DNA from: Paenibacillus algicola | GTDB taxonomy: Bacteria; Bacillota; Bacilli; Paenibacillales; Paenibacillaceae | Assembly (NCBI RefSeq): GCF_005577435.1 | Contig: NZ_CP040396.1 | Span: 3,352,501 to 3,416,500 of the forward strand | Direction of reading: 5' to 3' | DNA length: 64,000 nucleotides | Shown here: positions 6,117 through 64,000 of the stretch, piece by piece | How positions within the stretch are numbered: the first letter of the stretch is position 1 | Layout: each line of letters begins with the position of its first letter | Notes under the pieces: generated by a model | The model's database searches: none | Seen by the model: the letters and a program-made list of their open reading frames with translations, nothing else | What the model was told of the DNA's origin: nothing | Translations under genes and position numbers: made by a program

Positions 6117-6380
6117 CAAACGAGCTCCCCCTCTCTCCATCAGATAATGAGGTCGAAAATGGTAACGGCATACGACAAAACAACATAACGGCGGCGGAAA
6201 AATTGTAAAATCTGTATTTTCTCCATCATAGTCACTGGAAGGAATAGCCGTCAATCAGAGAAACTGTCGAAATACATCAAATGTGCAAAAAAACGTTACG
6301 AGTTATGTAAAGGTAAATTTATATGGAAGAGCCGCCTTGTTCATAAAGTGCATGCTTCCGGCCTCTTGAGAGACTATTGT

Positions 6381-6602
6381 CGGGTTCGGTTTTTCGCGTT
6401 CATATGGCGCGGGGGCGGGCGGGCGACGCATCGGGTTCGGTTTTTCGCGTTCGTTTGGCGCGGGGGCGAGCGAGCGACGCATCGAGTTCGGTTTTTCGCA
6501 TTCGTTTGGCGCGGGGGCAGGCGAGCGACGCATCGAGTTCAGTTTTTCGCGTTCATATGGCGCGGGGGCAGGCGTGCGACGCATCGAGTTCGGTTTTTCG
6601 CA
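6381..6602 (+). repeat. 51-bp tandem repeat array 1 (four units plus a partial)
   Basis: Units begin at 6381, 6432, 6483 and 6534, with a fifth partial unit at 6585. The spacing is exactly 51 bases each time. Each begins CG(G/A)GTTCGGTTTTTCGC and continues with a G-rich half containing GGCGCGGGGGC and ending GCGACGCAT. The period, orientation and first 14 bases match the array at 58379-59430. All three forward frames and one reverse frame stay open because 51 is divisible by three, but no start with a ribosome binding site leads into them. It fills the gap between the kinase start and the terminator of the gene at 6703. Confidence 0.9.
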
Positions 6603-55208: not shown

Positions 55209-55355
55209 TTAACGCCCCGGTTCAAGCTGGAGCAGGTGGTGCGGGTGGTGCGGGTGGTGCGGGTGATGCGGGTGATGCGGGTGGTGCGGGTGATGCTGGT
55301 GGTGCGGGTGATGCGGGTGATGCTGGTGGTACGGGGCGATGAGGGCAGGCCTCAT
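55209..55355 (-). CDS. Possible small histidine-rich protein (low support)
   Basis: An open frame of 48 residues from ATG 55355 to TAA 55209 encodes MRPALIAPYHH, then HHP/HHQ triplets (about ten copies, 9 to 41) and a short tail. The repeats come from the 9-bp microsatellite. There is no clear ribosome binding site before the ATG (CTAACAGTCAG). If translated it would be a metal-binding peptide of the Hpn-like type. It lies just after the ppnP stop and just before pgi. Confidence 0.2.
   Translation of the reverse strand: MRPALIAPYHQHHPHHPHHQHHPHHPHHPHHPHHPHHPHHLLQLEPGR
55233..55331 (+). repeat. 9-bp microsatellite (GCGGGTGRT)n
   Basis: About eleven copies of GCGGGTGGT/GCGGGTGAT/GCTGGTGGT are in register over about 100 bases. 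The variation is mostly at the G/A in the third triplet and G/T in the first. On the minus strand the triplets read CAC-CAC-CCG. It lies in the 228-base gap between ppnP and pgi and replaces any visible pgi promoter. Confidence 0.9.
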
Positions 55356-55794: not shown

Positions 55795-57810
55795 TTACAG
55801 CAGGGCTTTGATGCGGCTAACGACATTCTCGACTGTGAAGCCATATTCAGCAATGACGCGGTCTCCCGGAGCGGATGCGCCAAAAGTGCTGATGCCAAGA
55901 ATATCGCCCTGATCGCCAACATAACGCTCCCATCCGAATGGATGAGCCATTTCGATGGCCAGACGGGCTTTTACCTCTGGAAGCAGGACAGAATCCTTAT
56001 ATGCCTGATCCTGAGCATCGAACAAATCCCAGCTTGGCATGCTGATGACACGGACCTGAATACCATCCTGTGCCAATGCTTCCTGAGCCTTGACCGCCAG
56101 CTGTACTTCGGAGCCGGTAGCGATGATTTGAGCCTGTGCTTTCCCTTCCTTGGCATCGGAAATCACATAAGCACCACGCTTGATCCCTTCACGCGCCTGA
56201 TCTACGGCGCCTTCAAGCACCGGAAGATTCTGGCGAGTGAGCACCAAAGCAACCGGACGATCCTGATTCTCCATAGAATATGCCCAGGCTGCGGAGGTTT
56301 CGTTAGCGTCCGCCGGACGGATTACCGTAAGGCCCGGAATAATACGCAGGGAAGCCAGCTGCTCAATCGGCTCATGCGTAGGTCCATCTTCACCAACAGC
56401 GATACTGTCATGCGTCAGCACATAGGTCACTGGAAGCTTCATAATAGCAGCCAGGCGAATTGCCGGACGCAGGTAGTCCGTAAATACAAAGAACGTACCT
56501 CCAAATACCTTGAGACCGCCGTGCAGGGCAATTCCGTTGTTGGCTGCTGCCATTGCGAACTCACGTACACCGTAGTAAACATTACGGCCTTCATAGCTGT
56601 TCGCTGTAAAGTTGCTCAGATCGTTCAGATGCGTCATCGTGGAGCTCTCCAGGTCAGCCGAGCCGCCCAGCAGCTGCGGAATTCCGCCTGTCAAGCCGTT
56701 CAAGGCTTTACCGGAAGCAATACGGGTGGAAACAGCTTTGTCCTCCGCAGTGTACTTCGGAAGGTCCTGATCCCAGCCCTCGTTCAGCTTTCCGGATACT
56801 GCAGCTTCAAATTGAGCCGCAAGCTCAGGATAAGCTGCCTTGTACTGCTCAAACTTGTCTTCCCATGCCTTGAAAGCTGCAATACCGCGTTCCTTCACTT
56901 CGGCAAAATGAGCTGCAACCTCTTCAGGAACATAGAAGTCCTCTTCGGAAACCCAGTTATAGAATTCCTTCGTCAGCTTGGTCTCTTCTGCACCCAGTGG
57001 AGAGCCGTGTGTACCGCCATGACCGCCTTTGCCCTGCTTGTTCGGGCTGCCATAGCCAATCACCGTCTTTACCTCGATCAGTGTCGGACGCTGCGAGTCG
57101 GCCTGAGCTTCCTTGATCGCCTGCTCGATTGCAGCCAGATCATTACCATCCTCTACGCGCAGCACCTGCCAGCCGTAAGCTTCGAAGCGCTGTGCTGCAT
57201 TTTCTGAAAAGGACAGGTTCAGCTCGCCATCCAAGGAAATGTCATTGGAATCATACAGCATGATCAGCTTGCCCAGCTTCAAATGTCCCGCCAGAGAAGC
57301 CGCTTCAGCGGAAACGCCCTCCATCAGGTCGCCATCGCCGCAAATCGCGTACGTATAGTGATCCATGACGTTGAAATCCTCTTTATTGTAAACAGCACTC
57401 ATGTGCGCTTCTGCCATCGCCATACCGACAGCCATGCCTACCCCTTGTCCCAACGGACCGGTTGTCGCGTCAACACCCGCAGTGTGGCCGAATTCCGGAT
57501 GTCCCGGAGTTTTGCTGCCCCATTGACGGAACTGCTTCAAATCCTCGATCGACAGATCATAGCCGCTCAGGTGCAGCAAGCTGTACAGCAGCATCGAGCC
57601 GTGTCCGGCAGACAGCACAAAACGGTCGCGGTTGATCCATGAAGGCTGGTCCGGGTTGTGATTCATCGTCTTCGCAAACAGCTGATAGCCCATGGGTGCA
57701 GACCCCATTGGCATGCCGGGATGTCCGGATTTTGCTTTCTCGATCGCGTCAATCGAGAGTGTCCGGATTGTAGCGATGGACAGATTGTCAATCGTCTGAT
57801 TACTTGTCAT
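55795..57810 (-). CDS. tkt: Transketolase
   Basis: 671 residues. Transfers two-carbon units between sugar phosphates in the pentose phosphate pathway, with thiamine diphosphate. Signatures: [20 protein letters not shown] (about 18-37), [17 protein letters not shown] (about 108-124), [22 protein letters not shown] (about 151-172, ThDP motif GDG), and [26 protein letters not shown] (about 464-489), which provides substrate-binding histidines. Length is normal. It starts at ATG behind GAGGAGG. A small hairpin lies in its leader. Confidence 0.98.
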
Positions 57811-58260
57811 AAAAAAAATCCTCCTCAGGTTCAGTGCTTGATTAAGCGTTCTTGGTCTTCAACCTGGAGCTTATCCAGGTCAGAGGGCAATTAGGTAAGT
57901 TGAAATTATCAATTTGACTCTTATTGTATCATCTGATGCGTTTCTTTGCTATACGGGAATTCATGTTCATGTGTTTTCATTTTAGCTCTGCTCGTTTTCA
58001 TTTTATATGGACCGGGCATTTTATTTGGACCCGGCATCCTGAGCTGATCCTCGGCTATTGTGGCGATTTCATTCCAGGTCTCTCTGAGTAACATCCACGC
58101 ATTGCTTCTGCAGCCAAAGCCCTTCAGCATTATGCCCTCTCTACGAGGGCTATAACCTCATCAACGGCTATTGAAGCAGCAAGCTGGAAGGTGAGAAAAA
58201 GTAGATGAGGAGCGGGGAGCTCCAAGCTAGATACACATGGCAAAGGTTCTCTATGGGATA
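57811..58260. other. Intergenic region upstream of tkt
   Basis: About 450 bases. ACCTGGA/TCCAGGT (57862-57880) forms a seven-base stem with a five-base loop in the tkt leader. TACAAT is present on the minus strand near 57925, but I could not find a good -35. No gene with a ribosome binding site was found. The right side borders the terminator for the VWA/array transcript. Confidence 0.4.
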
Positions 58261-58300
58261 TAAAAAACGACGGTGCCAAGGAATACTCCCTGCACCGCCG
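58261..58300 (-). terminator. Intrinsic terminator downstream of the 51-bp array
   Basis: On the minus strand CGGCGGTGC pairs with GCACCGTCG (one G-T) around 15 bases, followed by six T. A transcript entering from the VWA operon at 59462 would run through the whole repeat array and stop here. Confidence 0.8.
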
Positions 58301-58341: not shown

Positions 58342-58374
58342 CCGCCGCCGTTGCGCGGGAGCCGCAACGGCGGC
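58342..58374. repeat. 13-base inverted repeat at the left edge of array 2
   Basis: CGCCGCCGTTGCG and CGCAACGGCGGCG are perfect arms around a seven-base loop (CGGGAGC). The right arm is the variable half of a 51-bp unit; the left arm is its inverted copy. Confidence 0.75.
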
Positions 58375-58378
58375 GCGT

Positions 58379-59430
58379 CGTGGTCGGTTTTTGGTGTTCG
58401 TTTGCGCCAGAGCCGCAACGGCGGCGCAACGGGTTCGGTTTTTGGTGTTCGTTTGTGCCAGAGCCACACCAGCGGCGCAACGAGTTCGGGTTTTGGTGTT
58501 CGTTTGCGCGGGAGCCGCACCAGCAGCGCAACGAGTTCGGTTTTTGGTGTTCGTTTGCGCCAGCACCGCCTCAGCGGCGCAACGAGTTCGGTTTTTGGTG
58601 TTCGTTTGCGCTAGCACCGCCTCAGCGGCGCAACGAGTTCGGGTTTTGGTGTTCGTTTGCGCCAGAGCCGCATCGGTGGCGCAACGAGTTCGGTTTTTGG
58701 TGTTCGTTTGCGCGGGAGCCGCAACGGCGGCGCAACGAGTTCGGTTTTTGGTGTTCGTTTGCGCAGGAGCCTCAACTGCGGCGCAACGAGTTCGGTTTTT
58801 GGTGTTCGTTTGCGCCAGAACCACCTCGGCGGCGCAACGAGTTCGGGTTTTGGTGTTCGTTTGCGCGGGAGCCGCACCAGCAGCGCAACGAGTTCGGGTT
58901 TTGGTGTTCGTTTGCGCCAGAGCCGCACCAGCAGCGCAACGAGTTCGGGTTTTGGTGTTCGTTTGCGCTAGAACCGCAACGGCGGCGCAACGAGTTCGGG
59001 TTTTGGTGTTCGTTTGTGCGGGAACCACCTCGGCGGCGCAACGGGTTCGGTTTTTGGTGTTCGTTTGCGCCAGAGCCACATCGGTGGCGCAACGTGTTCG
59101 GTTTTTGGTGTTCGTTTGCGCCAGAGCCGCACCAGCGGCGCAACGAGTTCGGGTTTTGGTGTTCGTTTGCGCGGGAGCCGCACCAGCGGCGCAACGAGTT
59201 CGGGTTTTGGTGTTCGTTTGTGCCAGAGCCGCAACGGCGGCGCAACGAGTTCGGTTTTTGGTGTTCGTTTGCGCTAGCACCGCACCAGCAGCGCAACGAG
59301 TTCGGTTTTTGGTGTTCGTTTGCGCGGGAGCCGCAACGGCGGCGCAACGAGTTCGGTTTTTGGTGTTCGTTTGCGCCAGCACCACCTCGGCGGCGCAACG
59401 AGTTCGGTTTTCGCGTTCACGCGGCGTGAC
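58379..59430 (+). repeat. 51-bp tandem repeat array 2 (20 full units)
   Basis: Units start at 58379 and every 51 bases to 59348 with no insertion or deletion. A partial unit starts at 59399 and a broken one precedes 58379. Bases 1-29 are nearly constant: CG(A/G/T)GTTCGG(T/G)TTTTGGTGTT then CGTTTG(C/T)GC. Bases 30-47 vary among a few alleles in different combinations, and bases 44-51 return to constant GGCGCAA. In most units the variable part holds a dyad such as GCCGC/GCGGC. The last partial unit (59399) reads TTCGGTTTTCGCGTTC, which is the array 1 form. All open frames through the array are long because 51 is three times 17; I do not call a gene here. Confidence 0.95.
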
Positions 59431-59461: not shown

Positions 59462-62395
59462 CTATTTGCGGCGCGTGCGGCTTTTGGCCTGCAGCAGCCG
59501 ATCCATGGAAGTGCCGCCCTGCTCCGCTGGCGGCACCCCGCCCTGCCCGGCCGGCTTCGCCCCGCCCTGCCCGGCCGGCTTCGCCCCGGCCGGCGCCGGC
59601 TCGCGCAGCGGGGCGTCCCGCCGCTGCGCCGGCACCCCCGGCGCGGCTGCACTGCCGCCGCGCCCCTCCGAGCCCGCATCGCTGCGCGCGGGCTCGGCGG
59701 CGGGACCGGGCGGCTTCATGCCGCCGCTCCGGCTCCCGCCGTAAAAGCTGGCTGCGCGTGCCTTACGCGCAGCCAACCGCCCGAGGCCGGCGTCCCGCCC
59801 GGCCTCAGCGGCAGCGGCAGGCTGGCGGCGCAGCGGCCGCGCCAGCCAGGCGCCGATGGCGGCCCATGGCAGAGCCAGGCGCCGCACGGCGATATCGGCG
59901 ACCCACAGAAGCAGGGCCGCCGCCAGCAGCGGGTAGCTCCAATCATGGAGCACCTGCCGCGAAACCGCTTCGCGGTCAAACACCGCGGCCGGCTCCTCCC
60001 ACTTAAGCACCCGGCCTCCCGTCAGCTCGGCCAGCTGCTGGAGTGCTTCTGCCCCGACGCCCGTGGAGATCTTGTACTCCGGCGAATACGGGACGACGAA
60101 TCCCGTGCCTGCCGCTGCCTGAACAGGCGTCTCCCCGCTGTCATCCGACAGCGACAGCAGAAACGCACCGGGCTTGGAGATGTCCAGCTGACCTGTATAG
60201 CGACCAGGGGCCTCTTGAACCAGCTCGACCTGCTGCTCCTGCCCCTCTTCTCCGGTAATCATCGCAGACAGCTTCTCCGGAGCGCTGCTGCCATCTGTCG
60301 TAATCTGCAAATTCACCCGGCTGCCTGCAGCCTCCGTGCTCACTTCATAAGGGGACGCCTCAAATTGCGGAAACGTCCATTTCACAAGCTCGGTCAGCGT
60401 GTCTGCAAATTTCGGCCACGAGACCCACGCCTTCGACCACTTTCCGCTCAGATCACTGCTCCAGGCCACCGTTCGTCCCGACCCATATTGCCAGCGGGCC
60501 AGAATCGGGTCCGGCTCCGGGCTCGACAGCACCACCTGGGCCGTCGATTTCGGCGTCGTTGCGACATAACCAAGCAGTCCGGGAACGCCCTCCGCGAATA
60601 ACGGTCCCCAGTCGCCCGCATTTTGTACAGCTGGAATAAACGGCTTATCCACGATATAGGACTTGGCCAGCAAAACAGCCTCCCGGCTGAATATGGCTGG
60701 AAGCGTTGTTTCATCTTCTACGAAGTAGTAACGGCCCTTCGCAGCCTCTGCCAAGGATTGCAGCAGCACCTGATCGGAATCCATGCCGACGGCTACGGAG
60801 GACATCGTAATCTTTTCCGCCACCATCTGATCCGTCAGCTCGCTGTAGTTGCTCCCCAGCGCCGACTGTCCATCTGTCATCAGAATCAGGTGCCTGCGCT
60901 GCGTGGTAATGTCCAGCATTTGCTCAAGCGCATCGGCGACAGCGGGATAAATGTTCGTTCCCCCGCTGCTTTGGATTCCCTGGATTGCCTCCAGTACCTC
61001 CTTCTTATCTCCCAGCTCCCGGGGCTCCACAACCCACCAGGGCCTGTCGTCAAAAGCAACCACCCCCACGGTATCCTTCGCCCGCAGCAGCTCGACCGTC
61101 CGCATCGCCGATTCCTTCACCAGCTCCATCTTGGCGCCGGACATGCTGCCAGAGCGGTCAATGACCAGAATCAGGCCGAGGGACGGGATTTCCCGCTTGC
61201 CCTCCAGCTCCATGGACACAGGCAGCGCTTTTTCGATCGGGGTCTTGAAATAACCGCCCATGCCGAAGCTGTCTTCGCCGCCGACCATCATAAACCCGGT
61301 GCCAAAGCTTCGCACGGACTGCTCAATCATCTCCATCTGCCGCCCCCCGACCCGGCTGCCAGACACATTATTAAAAATAATACTGTCATAAGCCGCATAC
61401 TTCGCCGCTTCCAGCGGAAGCAGCTCCGGTGGAATGACTTCGACAGCAATCATACCTGAGTCCAGTGCAGCCTTGATGTTGCCTGAGCTGCCTTCCTCTC
61501 CTTCTACAATAAGCACCCGCGGCGGTCCGTCTACCCGGGTAAAATCAGCTGCTGCATTATTGGCAGAGGATGTGTCTCCATCCATAAAAATCTCCGCCCG
61601 ATACCGGTGCAGCCCTGGAGACTTGGCCAAGCCTTGTACAGCATACCGGTTCTCACCCTTGCTGACCTCAATTCTCTGCCGCCCAATCTCCCGGCTGTCC
61701 TCATAAATGCGCAGCTCACCGGAAGCATTGTACGTGCTGTTCAGCAGCACCTCCATGGAAAAAGCCTCTCCCTGATACAGCTTGTCCGGCAGCTTCAGCT
61801 CCTCAACGGATACATCTTGAATGTCCTGTCCGGGTACCGGCAGTACATCCACGGCAATTCCCCGGTCCTTCAGCAGCCGGCCCATAGAGGCCATGCTGCC
61901 TACATTCTCCTCCCCGTCCGAGAGCAGCACAATTCGCGCATCTCCCTTTCCCTCAAATAAATAGGAGGCGAGCTGCAGACCAGACTCCAGGCCCGTGAAC
62001 GATTCCGCCACGGAAGCATTCAGGGAAGTGCCGCTCCCCTGTGCAGACAGCTTCTGCTCGACAGCTCCTTCAAGGCCCGTCGAGACCACCGCAATACGGT
62101 CCTTTTCTCCTTTCGTCTTCATGGACTCGCCGATCCACTGCTGAAGCCTAGCGGCATCCCCCATGCTGTCAGAACGGTCAGCCACATAAACAACCTGCTT
62201 GTCTTGCAGCACCGTAAATCCGTGTAAACCGGATATAGCCAAAATAAGCAGCAGAATAATGACGGTTCTCAGCCCGAAAGCGAGCTTTTTTCGGAAGCCG
62301 CTGAGCCGGTAATCTGAACGATAAGCACGGTACAGCAGCACGGCTGCCGGAATGAGCAGCAAGAGCCACCCGGGCTCGTTAAATTGAACGCCCAC
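59462..62395 (-). CDS. Large VWA-domain membrane protein (BatA/glutamine-amidotransferase-like type)
   Basis: 977 residues from GTG 62395, behind GGGGGGTG; the upstream ATG at 62422 has no ribosome binding site. Two N-terminal membrane segments (about 9-25 and 43-62) come first, then a VWA domain with YVADRSDSMG (DxSxS, about 70-79) and LLSDGEENVG. A class I glutamine amidotransferase-like domain follows (VLIVEGEEGSSG, MMVGGEDSFGMGGY; no catalytic cysteine seen). A second VWA domain has LVIDRSGSMSGAKM (about 413-426) with ILMTDGQSALG. A last membrane segment is near 850, and a Pro/Ala/Gly-rich tail ends the protein. Its start overlaps the stop of the upstream VWA gene by 17 bases. Function: unknown; such pairs occur with MoxR-type AAA ATPases in other genomes. 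Confidence 0.85.
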   Translation of the reverse strand: MGVQFNEPGWLLLLIPAAVLLYRAYRSDYRLSGFRKKLAFGLRTVIILLLILAISGLHGFTVLQDKQVVYVADRSDSMGDAARLQQWIGESMKTKGEKDRIAVVSTGLEGAVEQKLSAQGSGTSLNASVAESFTGLESGLQLASYLFEGKGDARIVLLSDGEENVGSMASMGRLLKDRGIAVDVLPVPGQDIQDVSVEELKLPDKLYQGEAFSMEVLLNSTYNASGELRIYEDSREIGRQRIEVSKGENRYAVQGLAKSPGLHRYRAEIFMDGDTSSANNAAADFTRVDGPPRVLIVEGEEGSSGNIKAALDSGMIAVEVIPPELLPLEAAKYAAYDSIIFNNVSGSRVGGRQMEMIEQSVRSFGTGFMMVGGEDSFGMGGYFKTPIEKALPVSMELEGKREIPSLGLILVIDRSGSMSGAKMELVKESAMRTVELLRAKDTVGVVAFDDRPWWVVEPRELGDKKEVLEAIQGIQSSGGTNIYPAVADALEQMLDITTQRRHLILMTDGQSALGSNYSELTDQMVAEKITMSSVAVGMDSDQVLLQSLAEAAKGRYYFVEDETTLPAIFSREAVLLAKSYIVDKPFIPAVQNAGDWGPLFAEGVPGLLGYVATTPKSTAQVVLSSPEPDPILARWQYGSGRTVAWSSDLSGKWSKAWVSWPKFADTLTELVKWTFPQFEASPYEVSTEAAGSRVNLQITTDGSSAPEKLSAMITGEEGQEQQVELVQEAPGRYTGQLDISKPGAFLLSLSDDSGETPVQAAAGTGFVVPYSPEYKISTGVGAEALQQLAELTGGRVLKWEEPAAVFDREAVSRQVLHDWSYPLLAAALLLWVADIAVRRLALPWAAIGAWLARPLRRQPAAAAEAGRDAGLGRLAARKARAASFYGGSRSGGMKPPGPAAEPARSDAGSEGRGGSAAAPGVPAQRRDAPLREPAPAGAKPAGQGGAKPAGQGGVPPAEQGGTSMDRLLQAKSRTRRK

Positions 62396-64000
62396 GCTGA
62401 TACACCCCCCATTCCAGTGCAATCACGAGTAATGCCAGCAGCGCCAGCCATGGCAGAAGCGATAACCCGGGCAGCGCAGTCGACCGGCGACCTTCTTGAT
62501 CCTCCCCAGTCTCTGCTGCCGCTGCACCGCTGCCTGCAAGCTGGCTAACGGCGGGGCCGCTCCCTTCTGCCAGATTGCCTTCAAAAGGATCCGGAGCTAC
62601 AGCCAGCCAGCTGCTTACCGTCTCTCCGGCCGGATTCACCTGCTCAAACCTGTACAGTCCCGGCACATCCGGAACCGTCTGAGCTGCAGATATTCCTTTA
62701 TCACTCTTTAGCGCCTCTGGCGGAATATATCCACTTTCCTTTACATATCCCTCTGCCGGAAGCCACTGTGCGTTTACGGTATCCAGGGCAACCGGAATAT
62801 TTACAACCGTCCCTGCGATATATCGTCCGAGGCCGGAAGCGTTATCCGAGGTGATCCACTGCAGGACGTTGCTGACCAGCACCGGGAACTCCGGTGACAG
62901 CGGAAGATCACTATCCTGAAGACGAAAATCAAAGGACAGGCGAGGATGCCCGGCTTCTGTTCCGGCATAAATGACCGGTGTACCGCCAACTTTGACAATA
63001 GGCTCTCCCCACGACGGCCGTTCCCCGGATACGGAGCCAATGTATACTCCCGACAGACTAAGATAAGCCGTGACCGGATGACGCTCAATGACGGGCTGAC
63101 CCTGCGGTCTCGATGTCCCCTTTGCCCCGGTACCCAAGGTCCAGAGCGGAGTCCGGGAGATCAGCTTCTCCCACTCTCCTTGCTGCACCGTCTCTGGCAT
63201 CGGGCCATCCAGCACAATAAGATCAAATTCCCCTTCCGGCACCGGCAGAGATTTGGAGGCCTGATCCTGTGCCGGATTTCCTTCGCTCTCGGCATCAACA
63301 TTCACGCGAGTCACCTGAGAGCCGCCCAGTTGCAGGGCTTTCTCCAGAAAGAAGTTCCCTGGCGTCAGCAGCAGCACTCTTGTTTCTGTCCGGTCGTATC
63401 CAAAAGCGTAGGCCTCATTATCCGCTTTGTAATGATCTGCACCTGTCAGTGCAAGCCGGTAAACCTCGGCATAGGGAAGACCATCAAATGACAGTGTCTG
63501 CCTCTCCCCTTCCGAAGCCGGTACCTCCTGGCTTGCAAGCAGCTTGCCGTCACCATAAAGGCTGACCTCTACCCCCTCCGGCGAACTGGCATTGCTGGTG
63601 ATCACAGCCACAGCCCTGGAGGAAGCTCCCGGACCGGACGCACCGGAAATACCGAACTGCTCCACAGCGGCATTGACCGGATTTCCGCCGCTGATCTTCT
63701 CAATACCGACCGGAACCTCGAAGGCAATCTGAGCTTTATCGTCCTTCCACTGGCCATCTGTAAAAATAACAACCTCCGAGTCTCCATCCTCCCGGGTAAG
63801 TGCTGAGGCCAAAGAGAGACTTTCCCGGTAGGAGGCCTGACCGTAGTAAGGCTGTAATTGTTCAATCGCCTTCACGACGTCTTCCCGGCTGCTTTCACGC
63901 GAGAGCAGTGCTGCCGGCCTTGCGCCCACGGCAACAAGCGAAATATCCCGTCCGCGTCCTTCCCGCCCTGTATATTCCACCAGCCGCTCCTTTAACAGCT
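62379..64000 (-). CDS. VWA-type membrane protein, partial (N-terminal end outside window)
   Basis: The frame is open to the right edge. Only the later part of a VWA domain is in the window (SEVVIFTDGQW, about 75 residues from the edge). The middle (about 150-400 from the edge) is beta-rich and extracellular-like, and a membrane segment (LSLLPWLALLALLVIALEWGVYQR) is at the end. This layout (VWA, beta domains, C-terminal helix) fits BatA-like proteins, whose first membrane segments would be upstream. It is translationally coupled to the larger VWA gene at 62395. Confidence 0.85.
   Translation of the reverse strand, partial: LLKERLVEYTGREGRGRDISLVAVGARPAALLSRESSREDVVKAIEQLQPYYGQASYRESLSLASALTREDGDSEVVIFTDGQWKDDKAQIAFEVPVGIEKISGGNPVNAAVEQFGISGASGPGASSRAVAVITSNASSPEGVEVSLYGDGKLLASQEVPASEGERQTLSFDGLPYAEVYRLALTGADHYKADNEAYAFGYDRTETRVLLLTPGNFFLEKALQLGGSQVTRVNVDAESEGNPAQDQASKSLPVPEGEFDLIVLDGPMPETVQQGEWEKLISRTPLWTLGTGAKGTSRPQGQPVIERHPVTAYLSLSGVYIGSVSGERPSWGEPIVKVGGTPVIYAGTEAGHPRLSFDFRLQDSDLPLSPEFPVLVSNVLQWITSDNASGLGRYIAGTVVNIPVALDTVNAQWLPAEGYVKESGYIPPEALKSDKGISAAQTVPDVPGLYRFEQVNPAGETVSSWLAVAPDPFEGNLAEGSGPAVSQLAGSGAAAAETGEDQEGRRSTALPGLSLLPWLALLALLVIALEWGVYQRGRSI

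Follow-up and report, generated by a model that had tools for sequence, protein, structure and literature searches.

Dispersed arrays of a 51-bp palindromic repeat in Paenibacillus algicola and their putative nuclease-like partner

The window array and its dispersed family

We analyzed a stretch of 64,000 nucleotides of the Paenibacillus algicola genome (positions 3352501-3416500 of the single 4,475,055-bp contig; here called the window) that carries a tandem array of 51-bp units between a vWA-like gene and a transketolase-like gene (Table 1). Tandem Repeats Finder (TRF) gave a period of 51 with 20.8 copies and 0% indels, and a core scan gave 20 units with 19/19 spacings of exactly 51, in agreement with an initial annotation of this DNA that described 20 units in exact register. 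The absence of indels is true of these 20 units only, because the degenerate unit on the gene side has lost one base. Each 51-52 bp unit contains a palindromic core of about 10-6-10 bases with an A-rich center. The core of the window array reads AACGAACACC-AAAAAC-CGAACTCGTT on the minus strand, in the same direction as the adjacent genes, and we call "sense" the strand that reads GCGAAAAACCGAA. If transcribed, the array would belong to the 3' untranslated region of the vWA-like transcript. A second, shorter array of the same family lies elsewhere in the window, with a terminator-like hairpin between it and the preceding gene.

Table 1. Features of the window, in window coordinates, and the partner gene, in contig coordinates
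Feature	Position	Strand	Remarks
51-bp array	58351..59411	minus (sense)	20 full units plus partial units
Degenerate unit	about 59399-59420	minus	side facing the vWA-like gene; more canonical GAACGCG core, A-run one base shorter
vWA-like gene	59462..62422	minus	label by eye, without a family search; stop codon faces the window array
Intrinsic-terminator-like hairpin and T-run	58260..58300	minus	just past the window array
Transketolase-like gene	55795..57810	minus	label by eye; next gene past the window array
Second array, same family	6380..6601	minus (sense)	5 units of 51 bp (TRF, core scan)
Partner gene, P. algicola	3149394-3150077	minus	~230 bp from a 7-unit array

The initial annotation divided the unit into a conserved and a variable half, the alleles of the latter being combined as a mosaic, and both descriptions held. 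Across 17 arrays of the genome, identity at unit positions 1-25 was 0.875 within and 0.825 between arrays, and at positions 26-47 it was 0.711 within and 0.473 between; the variable halves are homogenised within arrays. In the window array 18/20 units were distinct and neighboring units were not more similar than in shuffled order (914/2000 shuffles as high), so "mosaic" is a fair term. This argument from unit order has a limit in that some other arrays of the same genome do show neighbor similarity, for example array A2061613 (2/1000 shuffles as high). A small hairpin in the variable half of the unit was noticed by eye.

While the array itself proved real, its context had been overlooked: the second array in the window, a dispersed family, the palindromic cores, a partner protein and, in relatives, a polarity with replication. 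Searching the genome with an 18-bp core at up to 3 mismatches returned 331 matches, a large excess over chance given the 16 for the reversed pattern. The genome contains at least 17 arrays of 5-37 units each, 310 units in total, in which 283/293 spacings are 51. The count of 17 covers the regions fetched (100 of the 331 core matches were listed), and further small arrays may exist. An open frame of 503 codons spans the window array and 51 is a multiple of three, as would suit the protein-coding constraint that the initial annotation considered. However, 6/17 arrays are closed in all six reading frames and a related genome uses a period of 52. The arrays are therefore non-coding, and a protein-coding repeat, which these results contradict, retains almost no probability.

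For the symmetry of the core we compared one core per locus from 36 loci, with core windows picked by a fixed rule blind to arm pairing; genomes G023 and G061 yielded none, leaving 34 sequences of which 28 were distinct. Paired cells made up 77.9% versus 69.4% in shuffled sets (0/500 shuffles as high). Double changes, compensatory between species, occurred in 8/10 arm pairs, with 35 double-change cells versus 16.6 after shuffling (0/500), and slid versions of the core paired at 25-48%. The count of further pair types across species was not raised (232/500). Both a hairpin and a binding site for a dimer on duplex DNA would be consistent with the symmetry.

A partner gene that accompanies the arrays

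Comparison of loci identified a conserved stretch of ~700 bp adjoining several arrays that is a gene of ~228 codons. In P. algicola this partner gene lies about 261 kb away from the window array. Among genus loci with at least 59% identity, an array directly adjoins the gene in 25/27, on both sides in several and often on one only, and the array runs in the direction of the gene in 25/25 loci having arrays. In G023 one unit is visible before the contig ends.

A 25-bp core at up to 3 mismatches was present in 24/100 genus genomes with 0 in the reversed control, and core copies in the genus number tens to hundreds. A 21-bp core at up to 2 mismatches had at least one match in 98/392 genomes of the order, many of these positives being single matches as common as in the reversed control. 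We scored genomes as array-bearing when either search gave at least 4 core matches, which applied to 25/100 genus genomes; 21 of the 100 were outside the 21-bp search and had 0 matches in the 25-bp search. The gene was present in 24/25 array-bearing and 3/75 other genomes (24/1/3/72), with a p-value of 9e-19, or 6e-18 counting a gene fragment in G046 that was otherwise excluded, and both values are inflated by shared descent. The three gene-positive genomes scored as lacking arrays were G023, G061 and G091; in the last, which is core-negative, the partner gene adjoins a 51-bp array whose palindrome has diverged. At the level of sequence, the pairing of gene and array is well supported.

Matched specificity was seen within single genomes. 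Six genomes (G100, G068, G072, G103, G102 and G104) each contain two partner copies with 81-86% identity to one another, and these belong to two separate clades with support of 95/95 and 100/99. The downstream core ends in AACATACA beside the clade-A copy and in CGATTACA or CGAACACA beside the clade-B copy, each in 6/6 genomes. Core type thus tracks the protein and not the genome; some upstream-side arrays of these genomes were less clear in core type. The 51-bp arrays that accompany a second subfamily of partner proteins (42-47% identical) are of a separate, unrelated type, for example with the core AGAGGTA-taaa-TACCTCT. In 9/11 evaluable loci they begin no more than about 70 bp from the gene; of the remaining loci, one has its array 1.5 kb off and one is without an array, and a twelfth ends at a contig edge. 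We had also considered a BOX-like modular element, and abandoned it when we recognized the flanking "module" as the kind of array that accompanies subfamily 2.

The length of the unit is constrained, as the initial annotation proposed. In other species the period is mostly 51 or 52 (581/592 units taken within a range of 49-54), and the constraint extends to the second family of unrelated sequence. Five helical turns would match a unit of 51-52 bp. Homologous exchange would by itself keep the period constant within an array, but unrelated arrays of related proteins also share the period of 51-52 bp, which points to the protein as the source of the ruler. Another family of the order has 2-4 palindromes, spaced by about 51 bp, directly behind the stop codon in 9/11 loci (those with at least 60% identity and near-full coverage; the other two, L209 and L210, have none by eye), which is perhaps the ancestral form. 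The same family has 51-bp arrays in 4/14 loci at 35-40% identity.

Comparing copy number between relatives, as the initial annotation had suggested, we found three orthologous sites in G042 and P. phytohabitans where flanks are 89-92% identical and arrays stand in the same place and orientation. Unit counts were 3 vs 7, 8 vs 4 and 1 vs 9. On these sequences the arrays are shown to change by whole units, which, with the mosaic order of the window array, agrees with the view that whole units are exchanged and that single-base slippage is not the process. At the site of the window array, 7 of the 29 relatives inspected end at a contig edge, leaving 22 informative, and none of the 29 had a core (best at least 7 mismatches of 21) or a 51-bp array. 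In two of them the vWA-like/transketolase-like gene order is kept with a plain terminator in place of the array.

Copy changes by whole units would also be expected of a passive minisatellite that grew by slippage and unequal exchange and whose sites near the gene were merely used by the protein, for example for self-regulation. The minimal form of 2-4 sites right after the gene would suit this idea, as would a terminator-like leader that is conserved ahead of the partner gene. Against it stand the dispersal of arrays with matching cores to 17 sites in P. algicola and 26 in G042, the tracking of gene presence by dispersed arrays, the ruler common to unrelated arrays, and the replication polarity described below. 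We consider passive growth improbable.

The leader in question, GGCRAAGMATGCCCCG..GGAAAGGAG.CGGGGCTTTTT, was seen in P. algicola and in another family of the order (for example L150 at about 2215-2275 on the minus strand, L156, L158, L168 and L200-L208), and it may attenuate partner gene expression. Partner genes that are incomplete or disrupted, by an internal stop, a split or a truncation, occur beside or near arrays at L078, L176, L208, L239 and L240, in genomes G042, G007, G200 and G080. A BsrG-like RNA (L029 1827-2096; 56 bits, cutoff 55) lies about 1.3 kb from a partner gene, and a long ORF (open reading frame) that looks transposase-like by eye (L094 2256-3536) lies between the G069 arrays near the partner gene. 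As for carriage of the partner on phages or plasmids, we found no phage record and one Paenibacillus plasmid record at 41%.

The structural model of the partner protein predicts a VSR/homing-endonuclease-like fold of the EDxHD type followed by a C-terminal winged helix-turn-helix (HTH), and the nuclease fold of I-Bth0305I was found in the model. In 62 aligned partner proteins, E57, D69 and H89 are present in 62/62 and D92 in 60/62; these may correspond to the EDxHD residues. The EDxHD motif may be sufficient for cutting. Position 84 of the alignment is K in subfamilies 2 and 3 and M in subfamily 1 (30/62). Searches of NCBIfam, PADLOC and PHROGs returned nothing solid for the protein, and no Y1 transposase was among its matches in Pfam, NCBIfam and PHROGs. 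The top Foldseek match to the PDB was an R2 retrotransposon protein (E 1.3e-4, TM 0.28).

Orientation of the arrays with genes and replication

We examined the genes flanking the arrays as crude ORF picks. The upstream gene points into the array in 57/67 arrays (14/17, 24/26 and 19/24 in the three sets), and the downstream gene is in the sense direction in 32/67. A terminator-like hairpin precedes 43/67 arrays and follows 23/67, in a screen that also reached as far as 200 bp upstream for arrays without a sense gene.

In several relatives the sense strand follows the replication fork. This was so in G042 for 26/26 clusters, in G069 for 54/56 clusters from 100 of 106 matches, in G080 for 19/20 clusters among the matches listed (about half of 222), and in G078 for 5/6 clusters; in G080 and G078 the positions of origin and terminus are an assumption based on where the contig starts. 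Flank GC skew agreed with the strand assignment in G042 (26/26 signs) and G069 (21/22). The motif of subfamily 2 in G042 has the same polarity, in 100/100 matches listed (of 131) and 23/23 clusters. We rejected polarity as a by-product of gene orientation for G042 and G069 because at their convergent-gene sites, where the genes do not dictate the direction of an array, 17/18 arrays point with the fork (8/8 and 9/10) and the arrays at L061, L088 and L089 oppose both neighboring genes, still with the fork. This count of opposing arrays leaves out L078 and two in L094, which flank the partner gene. In P. algicola 12/17 arrays point with the fork (left 3/8, right 9/9), and 4/8 do so at convergent sites; here polarity may be a by-product of gene orientation. 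An 87%-identical segment of 1.27 kb followed by an array is found at L061 (G042, left replichore) and at L098 (G069, right replichore) on opposite strands, which may represent one site with its array turned to follow the fork.

The position of the arrays behind sense genes in 57/67 cases, and of the window array ahead of a terminator-like hairpin, would be expected of an RNA element, in which structured 3' untranslated repeats act in mRNA stability or termination. However, such a hairpin already stands before 43/67 arrays, orientation in G042 and G069 follows replication where transcription conflicts, and the core arms show no covariation inside P. algicola, where columns vary independently. 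Moreover, an Rfam scan of 16 different loci (the window itself not among them) gave no convincing match at the arrays; a weak isrG match (21 bits, cutoff 100; L026 3918-4026, minus strand) lies just outside the L026 array. An RNA element is thus very improbable.

A polar chromosome mark that serves the host would account for strong polarity in relatives that is independent of neighboring genes at convergent sites, for the missing ExK lysine of subfamily 1 and for the conserved site spacing. Here the protein would be a DNA-binding factor, possibly a non-cutting one, and the arrays would tell the translocase, repair or segregation machinery the direction of replication, much as KOPS, SRS or Chi sequences do (see below). 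We think this unlikely, although less so than passive growth, because 76/100 genus genomes have no core match, the window site is empty in all 22 informative relatives, polarity is weak in P. algicola, and the coexistence in one genome of several array families without sequence relation, with two protein clades whose cores differ, looks like that of independent replicators.

A satellite paired with its own nuclease-like protein

The explanation that we favor, with a probability of about 0.62 for the whole, is that the arrays are a satellite paired with its own nuclease-like protein, a homing-like selfish repeat, the window array being a copy that acts in trans relative to the partner gene. The partner protein, probably as a dimer, would bind the palindromes and nick or cut them, and repair against other units or arrays would then shuffle, homogenise, expand and spread the arrays. 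Sites about five helical turns apart would lie on one helix face, so that neighboring dimers could touch. In the majority of species examined, a link of insertion or survival to the replication fork would leave the arrays of each replichore in a single orientation, the usual place being just 3' of a gene and often past its terminator. Cutting and mobility are inferred from sequence.

Several observations weigh against this explanation. Among 50 listed PDB matches of the model one is a nuclease and all others are winged HTH proteins. The P. algicola protein belongs to subfamily 1, which may not cut because the lysine of the classical ExK motif is absent. In 10/10 loci of a third subfamily (36-40%) a 51-bp array is absent, G087 has arrays without a close partner gene, and G061, the nearest relative by its vWA-like gene, has a partner gene of 58-60% identity without an array. 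The shared descent behind the p-values, the lack of arm covariation inside P. algicola and the weak polarity there count on the same side.

A bolder version of this explanation, which we hold only tentatively, is a new class of selfish DNA. It would be a replication-coupled "homing satellite" in which a VSR-type nuclease with a winged HTH multiplies tandem, helically phased arrays around the chromosome in one orientation. The enzyme would act by nick and repair, and the form of the palindrome that it recognizes might be a hairpin folded from single-stranded DNA at the fork. Several nuclease/satellite pairs per genome would then each have their own sequences and a common 51-52 bp ruler.

The closest parallel is formed by repetitive extragenic palindromic (REP) sequences and the REP-associated tyrosine transposases (RAYTs). 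In that system, many palindromic repeats are tied to one gene that they flank, enzyme and repeat co-vary, gene presence goes with repeat abundance, and dispersed copies occur without the gene (PMC2817692). RAYTs are described there as transposases related to IS200/IS605, with flanking REPs inverted, and are reported as gammaproteobacterial (PMC2817692). The system described here is similar in its palindromic multi-copy repeats, in a gene flanked by them, in the co-variation of enzyme and repeat, in co-occurrence and in dispersed gene-less copies. It differs in having a VSR-like nuclease fold with a winged HTH and no Y1 transposase match, in its direct tandem arrays at 51-52 bp that follow the gene direction and are often one-sided, and in its Gram-positive host among the Paenibacillales. 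The best reading is that the two are analogous but unrelated.

I-Bth0305I is an EDxHD homing endonuclease with an HTH DNA-binding part that is said to dimerise on a target of nearly 60 bp (PMC3943268). The modeled nuclease fold and the HTH part of the partner protein resemble it, and the satellite system differs in that the site of the protein forms tandem arrays. In Streptococcus pneumoniae, BOX repeats are likewise intergenic and proposed to be parasitic; the abstract of that study names no partner protein for them, and their unit and layout are unrelated (PMC3049150).

CRISPR, which the initial annotation had discounted for want of unique spacers, shares regular units beside a nuclease gene, but was ruled out here because units of one array have similar variable halves (0.71 identity) in place of unique ones, and the palindromes lie in the array itself. 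I-Bth0305I is intron-encoded and has a single homing site. FtsK-orienting polar sequences (KOPS), SpoIIIE recognition sequences (SRS) and Chi are replication-oriented, short single motifs; the satellite is like them in its orientation with replication and unlike them in its long arrays and paired gene.

At the level of search results, the literature that we searched held no description of the 51-bp repeat or of the protein/repeat pair, and this bacterial satellite DNA is apparently undescribed so far. The novelty is the pair itself, for which no homologous enzyme/repeat pair was found, and the principle is like that of REP/RAYT. The origin of most bacterial intergenic repeats is, to our knowledge, unknown, and here a dispersed satellite can be traced to one gene through co-occurrence, adjacency and matched specificity within single genomes. 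Should the repeats be driven by the enzyme, this would be a second, independent case of a repeat with its enzyme after REP/RAYT, this time among Gram-positive bacteria and based on a nuclease where RAYTs are transposases. Two questions become testable, namely why the ruler is 51-52 bp and why the arrays are oriented with replication.

Further features were seen in P. algicola. A group II intron domain-V match (L021 1767-1840) lies about 2.2 kb from a 51-bp array. The window also contains a 9-bp tandem repeat of 11 copies at 55235-55335 and, within the 3' end of the vWA-like gene, a GC-rich 24-bp repeat at 59514-59600.
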